Of a DNA stretch of 64,000 nucleotides, positions 36,605-44,150 are shown piece by piece. Both the position numbers and the translations under genes were made by a program. Each line of letters starts with the position of its first letter. The first letter of the stretch is position 1. This DNA comes from Taiwanofungus camphoratus (lineage: Eukaryota; Basidiomycota; Agaricomycetes; Polyporales; Taiwanofungaceae): NCBI GenBank assembly GCA_003999685.1, contig CP021222.1, positions 1,860,001 through 1,924,000 on the forward strand, read 5' to 3'. The notes beneath the pieces are model-generated. The model was not told the DNA's origin, did not search any database, and saw nothing but the letters and a program-made list of their open reading frames with translations.

Positions 36605-37048
36605 GCTGCGACACGAAGAAGAGATGCCAGAAAGTCCTTGCACACCAGAAGGATCGCGTTGGCACAAGAAGGGTCCAGCCACAGAAGGATGTCGTATATG
36701 CGCTGGAACGCGAACCCGTCTCTTGCAGACATATGTAATGGAGGCTGACAACCACATATGATGTTGCTCAATTTTAATGGAGACCGACTATGCAAAGTCA
36801 TGATGAGATTCAGTACACAATCAGAGCGCTCTGTTTGATTTATAGCAAGTGAGAGAAGAGGATTCAATAGGATATGTACTTCAAATACGCGAAGAAAGCG
36901 CCGGTCTTTACTTGCAAGTTCAATGGAACGTCACCGTACACTGAGCGCTTATACATGGAATTGGATGTCATCTAAAAAAGGCAATGGCGATTAGCTTCCC
37001 AATAAATTCGCCCAGTACTCGTCGCAACTTGAGGTCACTTCTTATGGC

Positions 37049-37771
37049 ATGCGTCTCATCCAGCCGTTGCTGGAGCACCCTGAATTGATTGTACTCGAGT
37101 GTCCGGGCTGGCGCGAGTATAGAGTGAAAAGTCCACGGCTCCTTTGTAATAAGACTAGCAAACTGAAGCAGTTTATGGAGGAGTACTGGATAGATGCGAC
37201 CATTCCGTTTTTAGCTGCTTTGGCCTGGCCCATTGTACGTGTAATTCGTCTGTCAACTGGCCGTCTCACTGATCAGATGTTATCCCGGTAGCTTTCAGGT
37301 CATCGTGTCCGTATGTTTTGCTTTGTCTTAGCCGCGGTGTTGTATCTGTACGTTCGATGTACAAGAGTTCTCTGGGGTAGGAATCAACGACAGCTTGATG
37401 CGACTGGAAATTGACGGACGAGCGCAGAATCAGTCATCGTGCTTCCTTCCCTCGGGATTCAGTTTGAGACCCATCGAGGGACGCCATCAGCGCCCTTATT
37501 TGCATCGCGTCGCTTTATACCCTTGTCTTCTCTACAAGACTTCGTGATCAACGAGGGCCTTCGCAGATGGGATATACGTTACTATTTGGTTGCCATTCAG
37601 CGTCCTCATTCCAATATGGTCAGTTTGGTAGTTGCATATGAGGTCAGAGTTGCTATCAAATCAGATTTCTGGTGTGCTCAAGATATTTGCCAGAACACTC
37701 TTCCCCGGTTTCCTGTGCTTCGAGAGGTTTATCATGGCGTGCATGAGACATTATTGAAAAACCTGACATGA
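37049..37771 (+). CDS. GPI15: PIG-H/GPI15, GPI N-acetylglucosaminyltransferase subunit H
   Basis: ER membrane subunit of the complex that makes GlcNAc-PI, the first GPI precursor. Start MRLIQPLLEHPELIVLECPG (37049), then a hydrophobic hairpin: IPFLAALAWPIV joined by an intron to MFCFVLAAVLYLYVRCTRVL. The PIG-H domain follows: WESVIVLPSLGIQFETHRG, FIPLSSLQDFVINEGLRRWD, IRYYLVAIQRP, LVVAYE, then after a last intron NTLPRFPVLREVYHGVHETL to the TGA at 37771. Four exons; the second donor (GTAC before GTGTAA) was chosen to keep frame. About 180 residues, normal for the family. Convergent with the IST1-TBC gene, 94 bp between stops. Confidence 0.88.
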
Positions 37772-37865
37772 TTATGCAGCAAACTACGAACATCGACTGG
37801 CATACGTCATAGCATTTGACCTGAAAAAATCACACCAGGGAATATATATCATCATACTGGGGACA

Positions 37866-40800
37866 TCAAATAGCATTATCTTCGCTCTCATAGGCACTGA
37901 GCAGGTCATTATATCCTTCATCGTCACCCTCGACCGCAGCGCTATCTCGTTTGTGCTTCGCCTCTTGTCGATCCCCAGAGAATTTTCGGGATCTGACAGA
38001 GTGGCCGTCACTTGAAACTTTCCGCAATCTAGCTTCACGTCCTTCATTCGAAACTTTGCGTGTGCGTGCTTCACCGTTTCCTTCGCCAGATGTCTTCCGT
38101 GTACGTCTTGAAGACCGTGGAGAAACAGGCGACGTAGAAGGAAACGTGCTGGCTTCAAAGTTCATGGCTCTGGGTGTCGTGATATTGTCAACGTCGTCAG
38201 ACCGCTCAGGAGCCAATGAATGCTGATCTGAGGTTGAATTCTCAATGGATATCACCTTTGTGTTGTCCCGGGTGCGCACATTAGCCAGTCTTGGCGGGAT
38301 GCGCTTCGATTTGAGACGAGGGCTGCGCGAGGGCGCTTGAGTTGCGGATGAATCTGAGGTATCTCCCACCGACAAACGAGGGAGTGTGTGAGTCTTTCGC
38401 GATAGCTTCACCTCCGGTACAGATTTGTCTGACATCAAATCATTCGAGTCGCTGATGACCATGGAGCCTCGATGCGATTCCGTTGCCTTGACCCGTACGC
38501 CAGTATTCATCACGGACGAAGCCTCAGGAGTCTGTGGCGGTGGAGACGGTCCTGTTGTAGGAGAATCTGGCATATCGACTCGACCCCAACCTTTTCCACT
38601 TTGGCCATCATCACTCCCTTGCTGGGTCGATGTGTCGGTAGACATACGACGATGCACTTTTGGCGGACTGGAAGTAGTTGAAGACGTAGGAGTTGCCCTT
38701 CGTGAAGTTCTTGCCATGGGAGACGGTGAATTTCGCAGAGGAACAATTCTGCTGCTCGTAGTGTCAGAGTCCAGCTCCGAACGAGTTCCTCCCCTGTGCG
38801 ATCTCCTCCATGGATCAGAAGGTGAGATGGAAGACATTGACGACAGCGAATCCCTATTCACAGGAGACGGTCGCTTGCCTCGTACTGAATCTGCCCATGC
38901 TTTATCGTAAGACCCAGATGACGGAGGGTTCGTTGGGGAACGTGAGTGTCCGGATGTTATAAGGGAAGCAGAATTTAGAAGTAGTGGTCGTGGTCCGGAT
39001 TTGCCTCTCGACATGGCTTGCTCCGACTTTGAGAAAGATGCCAAAGACGTCCTTGCGCCTGCGCTTCCAGTAGATCCAGAATCAGGCACCGGTGACGATT
39101 CTGCACTGGTGGGAGAGACGACTGATGTCATGTTAGAGAATAAAACACTATCCCTGGGCGGCCGAAAAAAGGCAGGGCGTTCTGGAGGCGAGTATGTATC
39201 ATGGCGATCTGTACTTGGCAGGGATCCTCTTCTTTCGTTGTTGGCCGTCAATGAAGAATTGCTAGGGAGCGAAATGCGCCGCTTCGTGTCTACCTCGACT
39301 GAGGAGGTACGAGAAGATATAGGAGCTGGATGCGACGAACTAGAGCTGCTTGCTCGTTTATTCCACACATCCCACGCTTTGACTCTCCAATTTGTGCTAA
39401 CTTTTGCCAAAGTGGCCGCTGCGTCTGACTCCCTCAGCTTCTCAGCGTAGCCGAAAAGGACCGAACGCCCCCGATGTTGCGCAGCTTCCTTGGATGTTTC
39501 TTCTGACGGAGCTTCAGGTAGAGCCACGGGGGTGGACTCGGGTGTGGGTGATAAAGGTGACCTGGGAGATGGGGGCGGCTCCATCGCGCTTTGATTAGAA
39601 ATGCCGCGCCACACCGTGTCAGCCAAGCGCGCCGTCAGTGTCGACGATTTAGTGTCCGAACGAACGTTTTCCGACTCGCCATCTTCAGAATCAGAGTTAT
39701 CACTTTCCTCGCCTTCCAGGTGAGATTCAAGGATAGGTGCCTGATTCACGAGACCCTTCCAAACAGTATCTCGTAGTCGGGCTCCAAGACCGGCGCTGGT
39801 AAGCTTTGTGTAATTTGCTTCTGCTTCCCGTCGAAGCGCCAAATCATAAGCCGTCTGAAGTATTGCGTCAACACCACCCACCGCCTCCAATGGGTATTGC
39901 TGCAGGAGGAACATGCCTTCCGCGAAGGCGTCATCAAGTTCGCGCGCACCCAAGGGTGAGGAAGGTATCACGGCGGTTTCATCAGACCAAAGGTTAGGTA
40001 TATTGCGACCGGGTCTACCCAGACTGAACGAGTGATCGGTATGCATTAGACAAGTTACAAATAAACGGCACGAACCGAAGCAGTACCCCCTTGGCACGGA
40101 GTAGCATGCTTGTACAAATATCAACAAGATATTCAAGCTTCGCATTTCTACCGCGCTCTCTCATAGGACGGGAAAATAATGCATCCCAAACCGTCAGCAC
40201 GGAGGGTAAGGGGAACGTGTGCGTCAGGAGAGCGATGAGCCAGCGGCTGGGTTCTAAGCATCAATATGGCCCAAAGGAATATCTAATGCATACTTACTAA
40301 GAGTAGTGAGGAAGAATAGGATCTAGACCTTTGACTTGCTACATATCTAGGTTTAGTATCATGCTTTGATATAAGGGGATAATGCCGCCTACCAGATCGT
40401 CAGCAAGCTCGGGATCGGCCCAGCTTAACCTCTCGCTGAACTTACGCGTCCAGACGTTGCTACCTTCCTCGTCATTCAATTCCGTAAACTCTCCTAGCAT
40501 TGCTTCGAATAGCCAAAAGGCGTCTGCTTCAACGTGTGCCGCGTCTTCAGGTTCGACTTCCTCTAGGAGAGCTGAATATATAGGAACCAGCAGTGAGCCA
40601 ATATGGGGAGATTGATTGGCAGGGTTGGAGCAGGAGTGGACATAGAGGAGCCGTAACAAGGCAGTTGTATGCTTGTGATGCGCACCCATGGCACGGGATG
40701 GAAGTAGGGTAGTTGAGATACCGGAATGGCTCAATGATGGGGACTCTGGTGCCGAAAGTGAAATTGCAGGAGTACCGAGTGGGCTCACATCAAGCTGGTT

Positions 40801-42335
40801 CGATGAATCCTCTTTAGGAGTAGCTTCAAGTGAATTCTCCAATCGAATCTCCGGAGTGCTTTCCAGGCGAATCCCTGGCATAGACTCAGAGATAACAGCT
40901 GCTTGTGATCCAGACTCTCTTATGAGGCGGAGGCGGTTGTCCAAATTTCTTGCGCAGTCAATTTTGACAGGTTCGGGCGCCGTTTCATCCAGGGGACAAA
41001 GGGATGATGTCTCAGGCTCTTCTTGCAACCTGATTAGAAGCCTCGGTGGAACTTGGGAGAGCTCCATAGATGCATTCATCAGGGATGCATCTGACGACGT
41101 TAATGGGCTTGTCGGAGGTGGAAGAGAGGAAAGAGGGTCAAGTAATCGACGAACAAGATCCTGGAACGCGGTAAGATACACTTCATATCCCATGCAGAAT
41201 ACGTACATAGTAATTATCTCTATTCTTACGAGCTTGACTGGTCCAAGACGATTTCTCGACCGGAAGTGTACCCAACAAAAGTCTCGATCCTCTCGTGAGC
41301 CAACAAATCAATTCAGGAAGCTTCGAGACTCACCTCCAAACTCTGGGTCTAAGCCATGACGGATAATCGGGGAGCCCTATGTTGTTACCATTCCATTCTA
41401 CCATTAAAGCCAATTGTCCACGATCGTAAGAGACTTACCGTGTGCACACAGCATATGAAGACGTGATATGTCAACTACAGGAGCCGTTGATAGATCCAAC
41501 ATTTCAGAGACAGCGTTCACTCTAATAAAATTGTCGAAGCATAAGTTCCAGAACGTATAGTCCAGTCCTTCAAATCACCGACTTTTCGTGTGGTTGAAGG
41601 TCGGGCATCCACCGTACCCCATGGGATTTTGCGATGTCAAACAGGTATTGATCAAGTCTAGTTGCAGAAGGCGGAGGTGCCAAAAGAGCGCGACGAACCT
41701 AGATCCCGCTGAGAGAGATGGTTTCGCTCATCAAGAGTGAACTTACTCTAACCGAGACGTAGTCGTTGATAGACTCTACATAGTCAGGACCAAGCCGTTG
41801 TACGAGAAATTCTCGAACCAAGCGAAGATCTAGGCGTGAACCAGATGTTGAGAACAAGTTTTCACGTATGTCTCACTATTAACCTTTCGACTCAACCTGA
41901 GGCGCGGCAACAATGATGCTTGCAGCTGCTTCGATCATCACAGGGTTGGGAGGCTCGCTTGAAATTAACATGTAAGAAACCAAAGTCAGTACATTCCGGA
42001 CGTTGTGCTCGCCTTTTCTCAAACTCAGCCAAGTGACCTATGATGACTCCTACGTGCATCTCCAACGTTTGTAGAAGGTTGCTCAGGATGTCTTCGTTGC
42101 ACAGTTTCTGAACTTTGGCTCGCGCTAGTGCAACATTGCCCTGTCGAAGGAGCGTGGCAACATCTCTCCTTGTGATTTGAGCTTGCGACTCCATTTTGTC
42201 CTGTAGTTGACCCAACCGTTGCGCGGTTAGCCGGAGCTGCGACTAAGAATCTCTTTTCAATCTCTCTCCACAGGCAGAAGTCCAGTCACTCTATCGAACC
42301 TTCATTCTAATAGAATCCCAGACAGCCATCGTCAT
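37866..42335 (-). CDS. IST1 (ESCRT-III-like) domain fused to a TBC Rab-GAP domain, with long disordered tail
   Basis: Start MTMAVWDSIRMK (42335; a second ATG six bases inside), then SQLRLTAQRLGQLQDKMESQ, TRRDVATLLRQGNVALARAK, EPPNPVMIEAAASIIVAAPQ and ATRLDQYLFDIAKSHGVRWM: a complete IST1 core. Across a phase-matched intron the frame continues VNAVSEMLDLSTAPVVDISR, then the TBC start LPDYPSWLRPRVWRLLLGTL, the arginine-finger motif VKIDCARN, RLLYVHSCSNPANQSPHIGS, HVEADAFWLFEAMLGEF and YSYRWLIALLTHTFPLPSVL. The canonical YxQ glutamine finger is absent. A tail of about 600 Ser/Pro-rich residues ends at 37866. One intron (41958-42012) is GC-AG. Alternative: two genes about 60 bp apart, with IST1 stopping at PHEKSVI and TBC starting at MLDLSTAP. 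Known: IST1 regulates Vps4 on endosomes; TBC domains switch off Rabs. Confidence 0.72.
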
Positions 42336-43489
42336 GTATTCAATTGTCCAACTCTTTGCTATTGTATGGCTGATATCCTCAGACTAGAATCGGACAAGAT
42401 AACAGTCTTAATCATGAAGCCTTTGATGACATGCACCCTAGAGGAGAGTATGAGTCGCGAGAATGAAACACCGAACCAAGTGCAAGTTGTGCGGTCACTG
42501 CGGTACATGTAGACACACTTAAGTGGATAGCACGTGGCGGCGCTAAATTTGCCGCTGCAAGGTTCCCATGAGTCTTGACGTCGCCGAAATTCAGATGATC
42601 GACTAGACACGAAATTTGTCAGTGAACGTTGATGTGATATCCTTATGGAGGATCACAAGTAGTCATTTGTAAAGTGTACTGTGATAACTAGCAGATGACG
42701 TGAATTTTTACAATTGAGTTCCAGGATCCCAATAATCCCTATAAAGGATTGATCCGTGTCCGGACATGGGGGTCGGACCACACAAGGGGTCTTGACCTGT
42801 CTAGACCATTAGGGGAGGCATCGGAGAGTCTGCATGGAGTCACTGGGATGCACCCAGACTGATACAGTATATTTTCATACCAAAACTTGATGGACCTTTA
42901 GAATGCTATTGTATCTATGTTTTAACCAGGTTTTATGGGGATTCATGATGTTTGTGGTGCTCAGGACAGGATTTTACACTCACTGACCATTGCACATGAA
43001 GTTATAGTACATGGAGATTATGGTGAAGGCAGAGCCCTCTCTGTAAAAAAGGATAGTCAACCTAGTCACAAATCTAGTCCCCAAATTGTGCCAATGGACT
43101 AGCTAGTCATTTTTCTCGACCGCATCTGTCCAAATTTGGAGGAAATAGTCACACATTAGTCAAGGAGTGGTCGATTCAAGCAACCAATGAGTGACTATGC
43201 TCCCTGATTTAGTCACAATAATAGTCACCTGGCGCAATTTGGGGACAACGGTTGACTATCCTTTTTTACGGAGGAGCCCTGGTGTGGCTGTCGAGGGAAA
43301 AGTCGACTGGACTCCAGTCGGAACGCCAGTCGCACGACTAGTCGTGTACTAGACTTATCTGCTGTTGTATTGATGGCCAGCCGGCCGGTTCCCCAAATAA
43401 TACCAGCAGGAAACTTGTTGCGTGTAATGCATGACGGCCAGATATGTCGCATATAATATGACTTGATGTGCCAGATTCGGTCAGTTGAA
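42336..43489. other. Intergenic stretch containing a MITE
   Basis: About 1.15 kb upstream of the IST1-TBC gene. Apart from the 235-bp MITE at 43039-43273, nothing recognisable is seen. Confidence 0.5.
43032..43280. mobile_element. hAT-like MITE with 24-bp TIRs and 7-bp target-site duplication
   Basis: The body 43039-43273 (235 bp) starts CTCTGTAAAAAAGGATAGTC and its end, reversed, reads CTCCGTAAAAAAGGATAGTC, both followed by AACC: 24 bp with one mismatch. Beyond that, TCCCCAAATTG(C/T)G(C)C is also shared in inverted order. GAGCCCT flanks both sides (43032-43038 and 43274-43280). A 7-8 bp duplication fits the hAT superfamily. The body has many TAGTCA repeats and no transposase frame. Confidence 0.8.
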
Positions 43490-44150
43490 ATCAAATGTAC
43501 AACAGGTCAACATACGTAAGGGAAGGATTCACCCAACTGCCGGCCAGGATGCAGATGTTCGTCGATCCGCACATCTCATCTGAAACAAGATATAAATGAA
43601 TTGACACCTGAGTAAGAAAAAATGTAAGGGGTAGATGCTTACTCTAAATGGGGCACATGAACTTGTGATCCCACACCGTAAACAAGACAGCGATCCCTTC
43701 AGTATCTGTGAGACATCCATGAAGAAAAACATAAACAATGTAATAGACCAATGTGTGATATAAGCAGAAACAAAAGTCGCACTGCGTCCAGCCACACTCT
43801 GAATTCGACGATGAGTCTGGCAATAAGATTTGATAACGCGTCTCTGGAGAAGAAACTTTTTTCCTACAGAGCAGGTAACACGATGGATGTCACTGAGTTG
43901 ATGAGGATAAATCCAAGAACGAAGTTTCCTGCATACGCATATTAGCATATTTTTATCATTAGATGGTTAAGAAGCAAGATTGACCCACTTTGCGAACTAT
44001 CTGATATGTCCTAGTTAAGAAAAACTTCGACACATAGCAAAGTTGACCAGACGAGACGTATGAAAGTCACGACTAAAGCGACAAGTTAGTGACAGAATGA
44101 GAGGAGAGCAAGTGACAAACCGAACGCCACGGTCCTAGCCCAGGAACAGG
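43490..44150 (-). CDS. Tetraspan membrane protein, family member D (partial model)
   Basis: Hydrophobic exons in the same order as members A to C: WNLYSCSWARTVAFG (first exon, start codon unclear), VVTFIRLVWSTLLCVEVFL, NFVLGFILINSVTSIVLPAL, RDALSNLIARLIVEFRVWLD with AVRLLFLLISHIG, then DTEGIAVLFTVWDHKFMCPI and EMCGSTNICILAGSWVNPSL. The VEFRVW stretch corresponds to VRFECLW of member C. No in-frame ATG was found for the first exon (the available ATGs near 44163-44170 read out of frame), and no disordered tail is evident. The copy may be a shortened or decaying paralog. Confidence 0.45.

Follow-up and report, generated by a model that had tools for sequence, protein, structure and literature searches.

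The 64,000-nucleotide stretch of DNA analysed here (hereafter the window; contig CP021222.1 of the Taiwanofungus camphoratus assembly GCA_003999685.1, positions 1,860,001 to 1,924,000) carries on its minus strand, at 37866-42335, an IST1 domain that runs directly into a TBC domain. The locus raises the question of whether the two domains are produced as one protein and, if so, whether that protein regulates Vps4 and inactivates Rabs, linking endosomal sorting complexes required for transport (ESCRT) to Rab control, as the original prediction proposed. We find that IST1 and TBC are almost certainly encoded by one gene as one protein and that the TBC domain, judged by its alignments, is very probably not a GTPase-activating protein (GAP). 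Taken as a whole, we read the product as a conserved mushroom adaptor composed of a diverged IST1 paralog, a pseudo-GAP TBC domain and a disordered tail with an acidic YxxL motif, a statement that we advance tentatively, as nearly as likely to stand as to fail. The fusion, its conservation, the replaced catalytic fingers, the lack of a strict MIT-interacting motif 1 (MIM1) and the existence of a separate canonical IST1 are seen directly in sequences and models.

Gene structure and the IST1-TBC junction

The spliced model of the gene reads from 42335 to 37866 in 12 exons and 1292 codons, and both termini of its coding sequence (CDS) coincide with 37866-42335. It differs from the NCBI protein AcV5_006127 of T. 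camphoratus (P0001 in our numbering of proteins) by N67D alone. The introns measure 46-62 nt and sum to 591 nt; intron 2 is of the GC-AG type and the remaining ones are GT-AG. The features of the gene are as follows, with exon bounds from the spliced model.

37866..42335, minus strand: fusion gene of IST1 and TBC; 12 coding exons, 1292 aa (spliced model, 1291/1292 identical to P0001)
42300..42335, minus strand: exon 1; start codon and N-terminal 12 residues
42013..42242, minus strand: exon 2; IST1 domain, followed by the GC-AG intron
41884..41957, minus strand: exon 3; IST1 domain
41747..41829, minus strand: exon 4; IST1 domain
41583..41698, minus strand: exon 5; end of the IST1 domain and first residues of the first TBC helix (177-180)
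41522..41582, minus strand: intron 5, the joining intron; 61 nt, in phase 2 within the K180 codon, in-frame stop if retained
41439..41521, minus strand: exon 6; first TBC helix continued, with the alternative methionine M187 (41500-41502)
41334..41376, minus strand: exon 7; TBC
41207..41282, minus strand: exon 8; TBC
40393..41160, minus strand: exon 9; TBC, including a long insert of low model confidence as well as the two former finger sites
40298..40338, minus strand: exon 10; TBC
40076..40246, minus strand: exon 11; TBC (RWL..., WD motif)
37866..40023, minus strand: exon 12; end of TBC, long Ser-rich tail predicted to be mostly disordered, stop codon

A Pfam scan of residues 1-719 places Ist1 at 12-169, with 133.5 bits against a cut-off of 33.6, and RabGAP-TBC at 453-542, with 49.1 bits against 25.2. 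The N-terminal half of the TBC domain lies outside the Pfam match and was recovered with a profile and structure comparison. P0001 has no match in NCBIfam, and Rfam at gathering score has none in 37000-43500.

The joining intron had been placed at about 41510-41560; an in-frame intron is indeed present, slightly displaced at 41522-41582, and the spliced model carries the frame from PHEK into VNAVSEMLD as claimed. Its borders are GTCGGT...TATTAG, and its retention would bring in an in-frame TGA, yielding a product that ends in PHEKSVI. In the AlphaFold2 model of the ortholog P0034, the final helix upstream of the junction stops at residue 162, and the TBC fold opens with a helix at 173-184; this opening helix corresponds to residues 177-188 of the window protein, PHEKVNAVSEML. 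A second predicted structure, that of Mycena maculata P0084, has the same TBC-opening helix at 181-192. Via structure comparison, model residues 171-637 align with Gyp1, and the alignment to the Gyp1 hidden Markov model (HMM) begins at profile position 6, corresponding to K180, whose codon is split by the joining intron. Because the first TBC helix spans the joining-intron segment, a TBC domain begun at MLDLSTAP (M187) would truncate the modelled fold, keeping only two of the helix's twelve residues and losing the other ten.

Homologs keep the same arrangement. The search with the full-length protein ranked candidates by shared words, scored the top 7987 and gave 195 matches, 120 of them listed; counts out of 120 below refer to these. 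It was complemented by a profile of residues 1-589 built from 7 sequences (candidates up to about 1030 aa, 7997 sharing most words scored; 27 rows) and by a TBC-core search with residues 215-400 of P0127 (31 rows at an expect value (E) up to 1 among 1129 candidates), the three together making up a set of 165 homologs. The Ist1 and RabGAP-TBC Pfam domains occur together in 118 of the 120, P0041 and P0065 carrying only Ist1. The order of the domains is that of the window protein, so that the spliced model, the NCBI protein and the homologs all bear out the predicted single gene in which IST1 leads directly into TBC. Both parts are aligned in 144 of the 165: one match begins ahead of residue 150, inside IST1, and one extends beyond residue 440, inside TBC. 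Among the 21 lacking a match to the IST1 part, 20 are truncated models or fragments that start elsewhere, whereas P0140 starts at the junction. The latter, of 392 aa with its first methionine at the junction and 18.6 kb as its longest contig, looks like an intron-blind open reading frame call on genomic DNA, since its match stops at residue 503, where exon 9 ends. Measured between W171 and W221, the IST1-to-TBC spacing amounts to 51 or 52 residues in 109/120. The four homologs with a spacing outside 45-58 differ in sequence in or close to the GIP segment, which lies downstream of the junction.

The 'lgn' source alone supplies three full-length proteins (P0002, P0093 and P0154) whose contigs leave 257, 148 and 186 nt, respectively, beyond the coding length. 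They probably derive from spliced transcripts, as these contigs are too short for the gene plus its introns (591 nt here), a judgement made from the room on the contigs. Eight further 'lgn'-only proteins of the full-length search also cross the junction; their spare room (498 nt for P0096, 608-1775 nt for the other seven) is not decisive. Two same-strand genes about 60 bp apart and wrongly joined in annotation would fit the in-frame stop shortly after PHEK, the ATG at 41502 and the fragment P0140, but this model is rejected as very unlikely in view of the near-fixed spacing, the two-part homolog alignments, the helix that crosses the junction, a Gyp1 alignment starting at about the split codon, the spliced model and the three 'lgn' proteins with only 148-257 nt to spare.

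Directly upstream of the fusion gene, at 43039-43273, lies an element resembling a miniature inverted-repeat transposable element, in which two inverted repeats are nested, one of 24 nt (96% complementary) and one of 25 nt (84%). Searching the genome with 43030-43340 as query gave 89 matching rows, with 40 of 76 candidates scored, and the best 40 rows comprise the window copy and 39 other places at 82-96% identity over about 170-245 nt.

Catalytic positions of the TBC domain

The structure comparison recovers a complete TBC fold, in which three positions may bear on catalysis.

41080..41091, minus strand: former arginine-finger site; D271 to L274 in place of IxxDxxR (alignment to Gyp1)
40606..40608, minus strand: former glutamine-finger site; Pro432 in place of the Gln of YxQ (alignment to TBC1D22A/B)
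40933..40935, minus strand: Arg323; invariant in 120/120, candidate substitute finger on a conserved helix that is predicted to lie between the two finger sites

At the first of these, D271 is kept in 119 of the 120 homologs and the residue three positions on is Leu, Ile or Val, and not Arg, in every one. At the second, proline is found in 120/120, and the pattern [YFW]xQG is absent between residues 380 and 470 from all 120. With both finger positions replaced throughout, the domain very probably has no GAP activity, and the predicted inactivation of Rabs loses its footing; a TBC fold with both fingers replaced is a feature that the protein shares with inactive TBC scaffolds. Other TBC residues are invariant, among them EAD at 458-460 and WD at 537-538 (each 120/120). 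Searched at E up to 1, the genome yielded no second TBC domain of this kind: each of the 7 matches falls inside the fusion gene.

The IST1 half, the tail and their distribution

A genome search identifies two IST1 loci, the fusion gene and a standalone gene.

G000:C1:3474679-3475874 (L020 2680-3875): canonical standalone IST1 gene; 8 exons, 271 residues (gene model)

Scored against human IST1, the canonical copy reaches 139 bits and the fused protein 51, and the pair share 40% identity across 180 columns; on account of this lower score and limited identity we read the fused IST1, by sequence, as a diverged second copy (paralog). It retains the IST1 core, with the Pfam Ist1 domain and the ESCRT-III-like helical fold. 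MIM1 is a C-terminal motif for the MIT domain of Vps4. The canonical protein ends in a MIM1-like tail, EDEFEALAKRFDALKKR, which matches our relaxed pattern for this consensus and not the strict one. The strict pattern is found in none of the 120 fused proteins, a weak test when taken alone because the canonical IST1 fails it too. With the canonical IST1 encoded elsewhere, the fused copy does not appear to be an ordinary Vps4 regulator, and the Vps4 role ascribed to it in the original prediction is doubtful. The automatic name 'regulator of Vps4 activity' that many fused proteins bear is likewise probably misleading, since its carrier is a diverged IST1 paralog without the strict Vps4-binding motif and fused to a pseudo-GAP. 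Both IST1 genes contain a GC-AG intron in their gene models, namely intron 2 of the fusion gene (41958-42012) and intron 1 of the canonical gene (L020 2710-2758).

Beyond the TBC domain, structure models predict a mostly disordered tail, in which three motif sites stand out.

39741..39788, minus strand: tail motif copy 1; LGARLRDTVWKGLVNQ, residues 653-668
39591..39638, minus strand: tail motif copy 2; LTARLADTVWRGISNQ, residues 703-718
37881..37931, minus strand: C-terminal acidic motif with a YxxL like that of an Atg8-interacting motif (AIM) or LC3-interacting region (LIR); EGDDEGYNDLLSAYESE (EGDDEGYxxLLSAYESE)

The first two are copies of a 16-residue motif, L-x-A-R-L-x-D-T-V-W-x-G-x-x-N-Q, with starts 50 residues apart; a related pattern is present in two copies in 71 of the 120 proteins, in a single copy in 35 and in three copies in 10, and is missing from 4. 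The acidic core at the C-terminus, DDE followed by Tyr or Phe either directly or after Gly, Arg or Glu, is present in 117/120, and the three proteins that miss it (P0034, P0038 and P0039) have other C-termini. At the place of this motif, [YFW]xx[LIV] is found in 113/120; elsewhere in the tail the pattern has a frequency of 0.0055 per residue. The second structure model gives no docking of the C-terminal motif on the folded domains: almost the whole of residues 1078-1182, a stretch that includes the motif, has a predicted local distance difference test score (pLDDT) <50. We take the acidic YxxL motif to resemble an Atg8-interacting motif. A TBC protein interacting with ATG8 homologues, TBC1D9B, is described in PMC6131546.

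The fusion occurs in at least nine orders of Agaricomycetes (Polyporales, Hymenochaetales, Corticiales, Jaapiales, Amylocorticiales, Gloeophyllales, Russulales, Boletales and Agaricales), the assignment having been confirmed for one species per order. No shorter or unfused relatives outside Agaricomycetes were recognised among the named matches listed (120 of the 195 for the full-length search), in a search that needs shared 5-residue words and may let distant relatives escape, so that absence of the fusion from other groups is not established. The architecture had not been counted among standard families in the original prediction. It is already present in databases as automatic annotation, and its two halves and inactive TBC domains are each known; no description of an IST1-TBC fusion was found among open-licence PubMed Central (PMC) papers, by title or start of abstract.

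Proposed role and comparison with known systems

In the adaptor reading, the IST1 core would contact ESCRT-III surfaces of the CHMP1/Did2 type on endosomal membranes, as its family suggests; the pseudo-GAP would serve to bind a protein, either a Rab or some other partner, in the manner of inactive TBC1D23; and in this way ESCRT-III sites could be connected with one particular organelle or vesicle while no Rab is inactivated. This mechanism is slightly more tentative than the overall description of the protein. Several observations weigh against the reading. The arginine position is a three-residue extension past the aligned edge of the Gyp1 HMM alignment, the invariant Arg323 is a candidate substitute finger, and the window protein has a loose IxxDxxR match at 312-318 (VKIDCAR). 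A relaxed MIM1 pattern occurs in the tail after residue 600 of 3/120 fused proteins, and it is this relaxed pattern only that the canonical IST1 of the same genome passes. According to PMC7015432, TBC1D24, lacking an arginine finger, may act in an alternative way, and USP6 and TBC1D3, also without one, show no Rab binding or regulation, so that Rab binding by a dead TBC domain is not to be assumed.

The last point is shared with the explanation that survives best beside the adaptor, a pure structural scaffold in which TBC binds no Rab and docks another protein while IST1 provides attachment to filament or membrane. The abutting of IST1 and TBC, at a short and nearly fixed spacing, would suit it as well. 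This scaffold is a possibility of which we are somewhat doubtful, and it differs from the adaptor in the partner only.

An active RabGAP with non-canonical catalysis, for instance through Arg323, would restore the coupling of ESCRT-III to Rab inactivation. The complete TBC fold and the invariance of Arg323, EAD and WD speak in its favour, as does the loose IxxDxxR match; however, such a match between residues 225 and 420 is found in 9/120 homologs, window protein included, and its Asp315 and Arg318 are kept in only 8 and 9 of the 120. The proline and the aliphatic residues at the two classical positions also count against it, as does TBC1D23, for which, according to PMC7274447, replacement of both finger residues goes with no obvious GAP activity on a Rab panel. 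We therefore consider an active GAP unlikely.

Bolder than the adaptor as proposed, and somewhat less probable than an active GAP, is a scheme in which the second IST1 enters polymers together with ESCRT-III, the dead TBC recognises a Rab in its GTP-bound state without inactivating it and the near-universal YxxL motif binds Atg8, directing ESCRT-III scission to Rab- and Atg8-marked membranes; if true, such targeted scission could serve, for example, autophagosome closure or vacuole repair. Decay of the fusion under relaxed constraint would accommodate the lost finger residues and the variability of the insert and much of the tail, but is highly improbable given the conservation of many non-catalytic TBC positions and some tail positions across 120 proteins, which include species of nine orders, and of the C-terminal motif core in 117/120.

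Should the adaptor reading hold, mushroom-forming fungi would have gained a dedicated covalent link from ESCRT-III-type machinery to a Rab- or tether-binding fold, and a single gene would offer a genetic handle on the targeting of ESCRT-III to particular membranes.

The protein differs from the known systems closest to it. Canonical IST1 (yeast Ist1, human IST1/KIAA0174) has a C-terminal MIM1, whereas the fused protein lacks a strict MIM1 and has a TBC domain and a long tail. The Gyp1/TBC1D22 RabGAPs, nearest only among TBC subfamilies with solved structures, carry IxxDxxR and YxQ; in the fused protein both are replaced, a large insert is present and IST1 is attached. TBC1D24/Skywalker, according to PMC7015432, is similar in combining TBC with another domain and in the absence of the arginine; it differs in that its partner domain is TLDc and in that the fused protein has also lost the glutamine. 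TBC1D23 has a rhodanese domain, and none is found here, Ist1 and RabGAP-TBC being the only domains in residues 1-719 (E up to 0.1) and in the precomputed Pfam list of P0001; the fusion protein has IST1 as its partner domain instead. With its two finger residues replaced and no obvious GAP activity, TBC1D23 bridges golgins to endosomal WASH/FAM21 (PMC7274447), and by analogy it would provide the best precedent for an adaptor built on a TBC fold.

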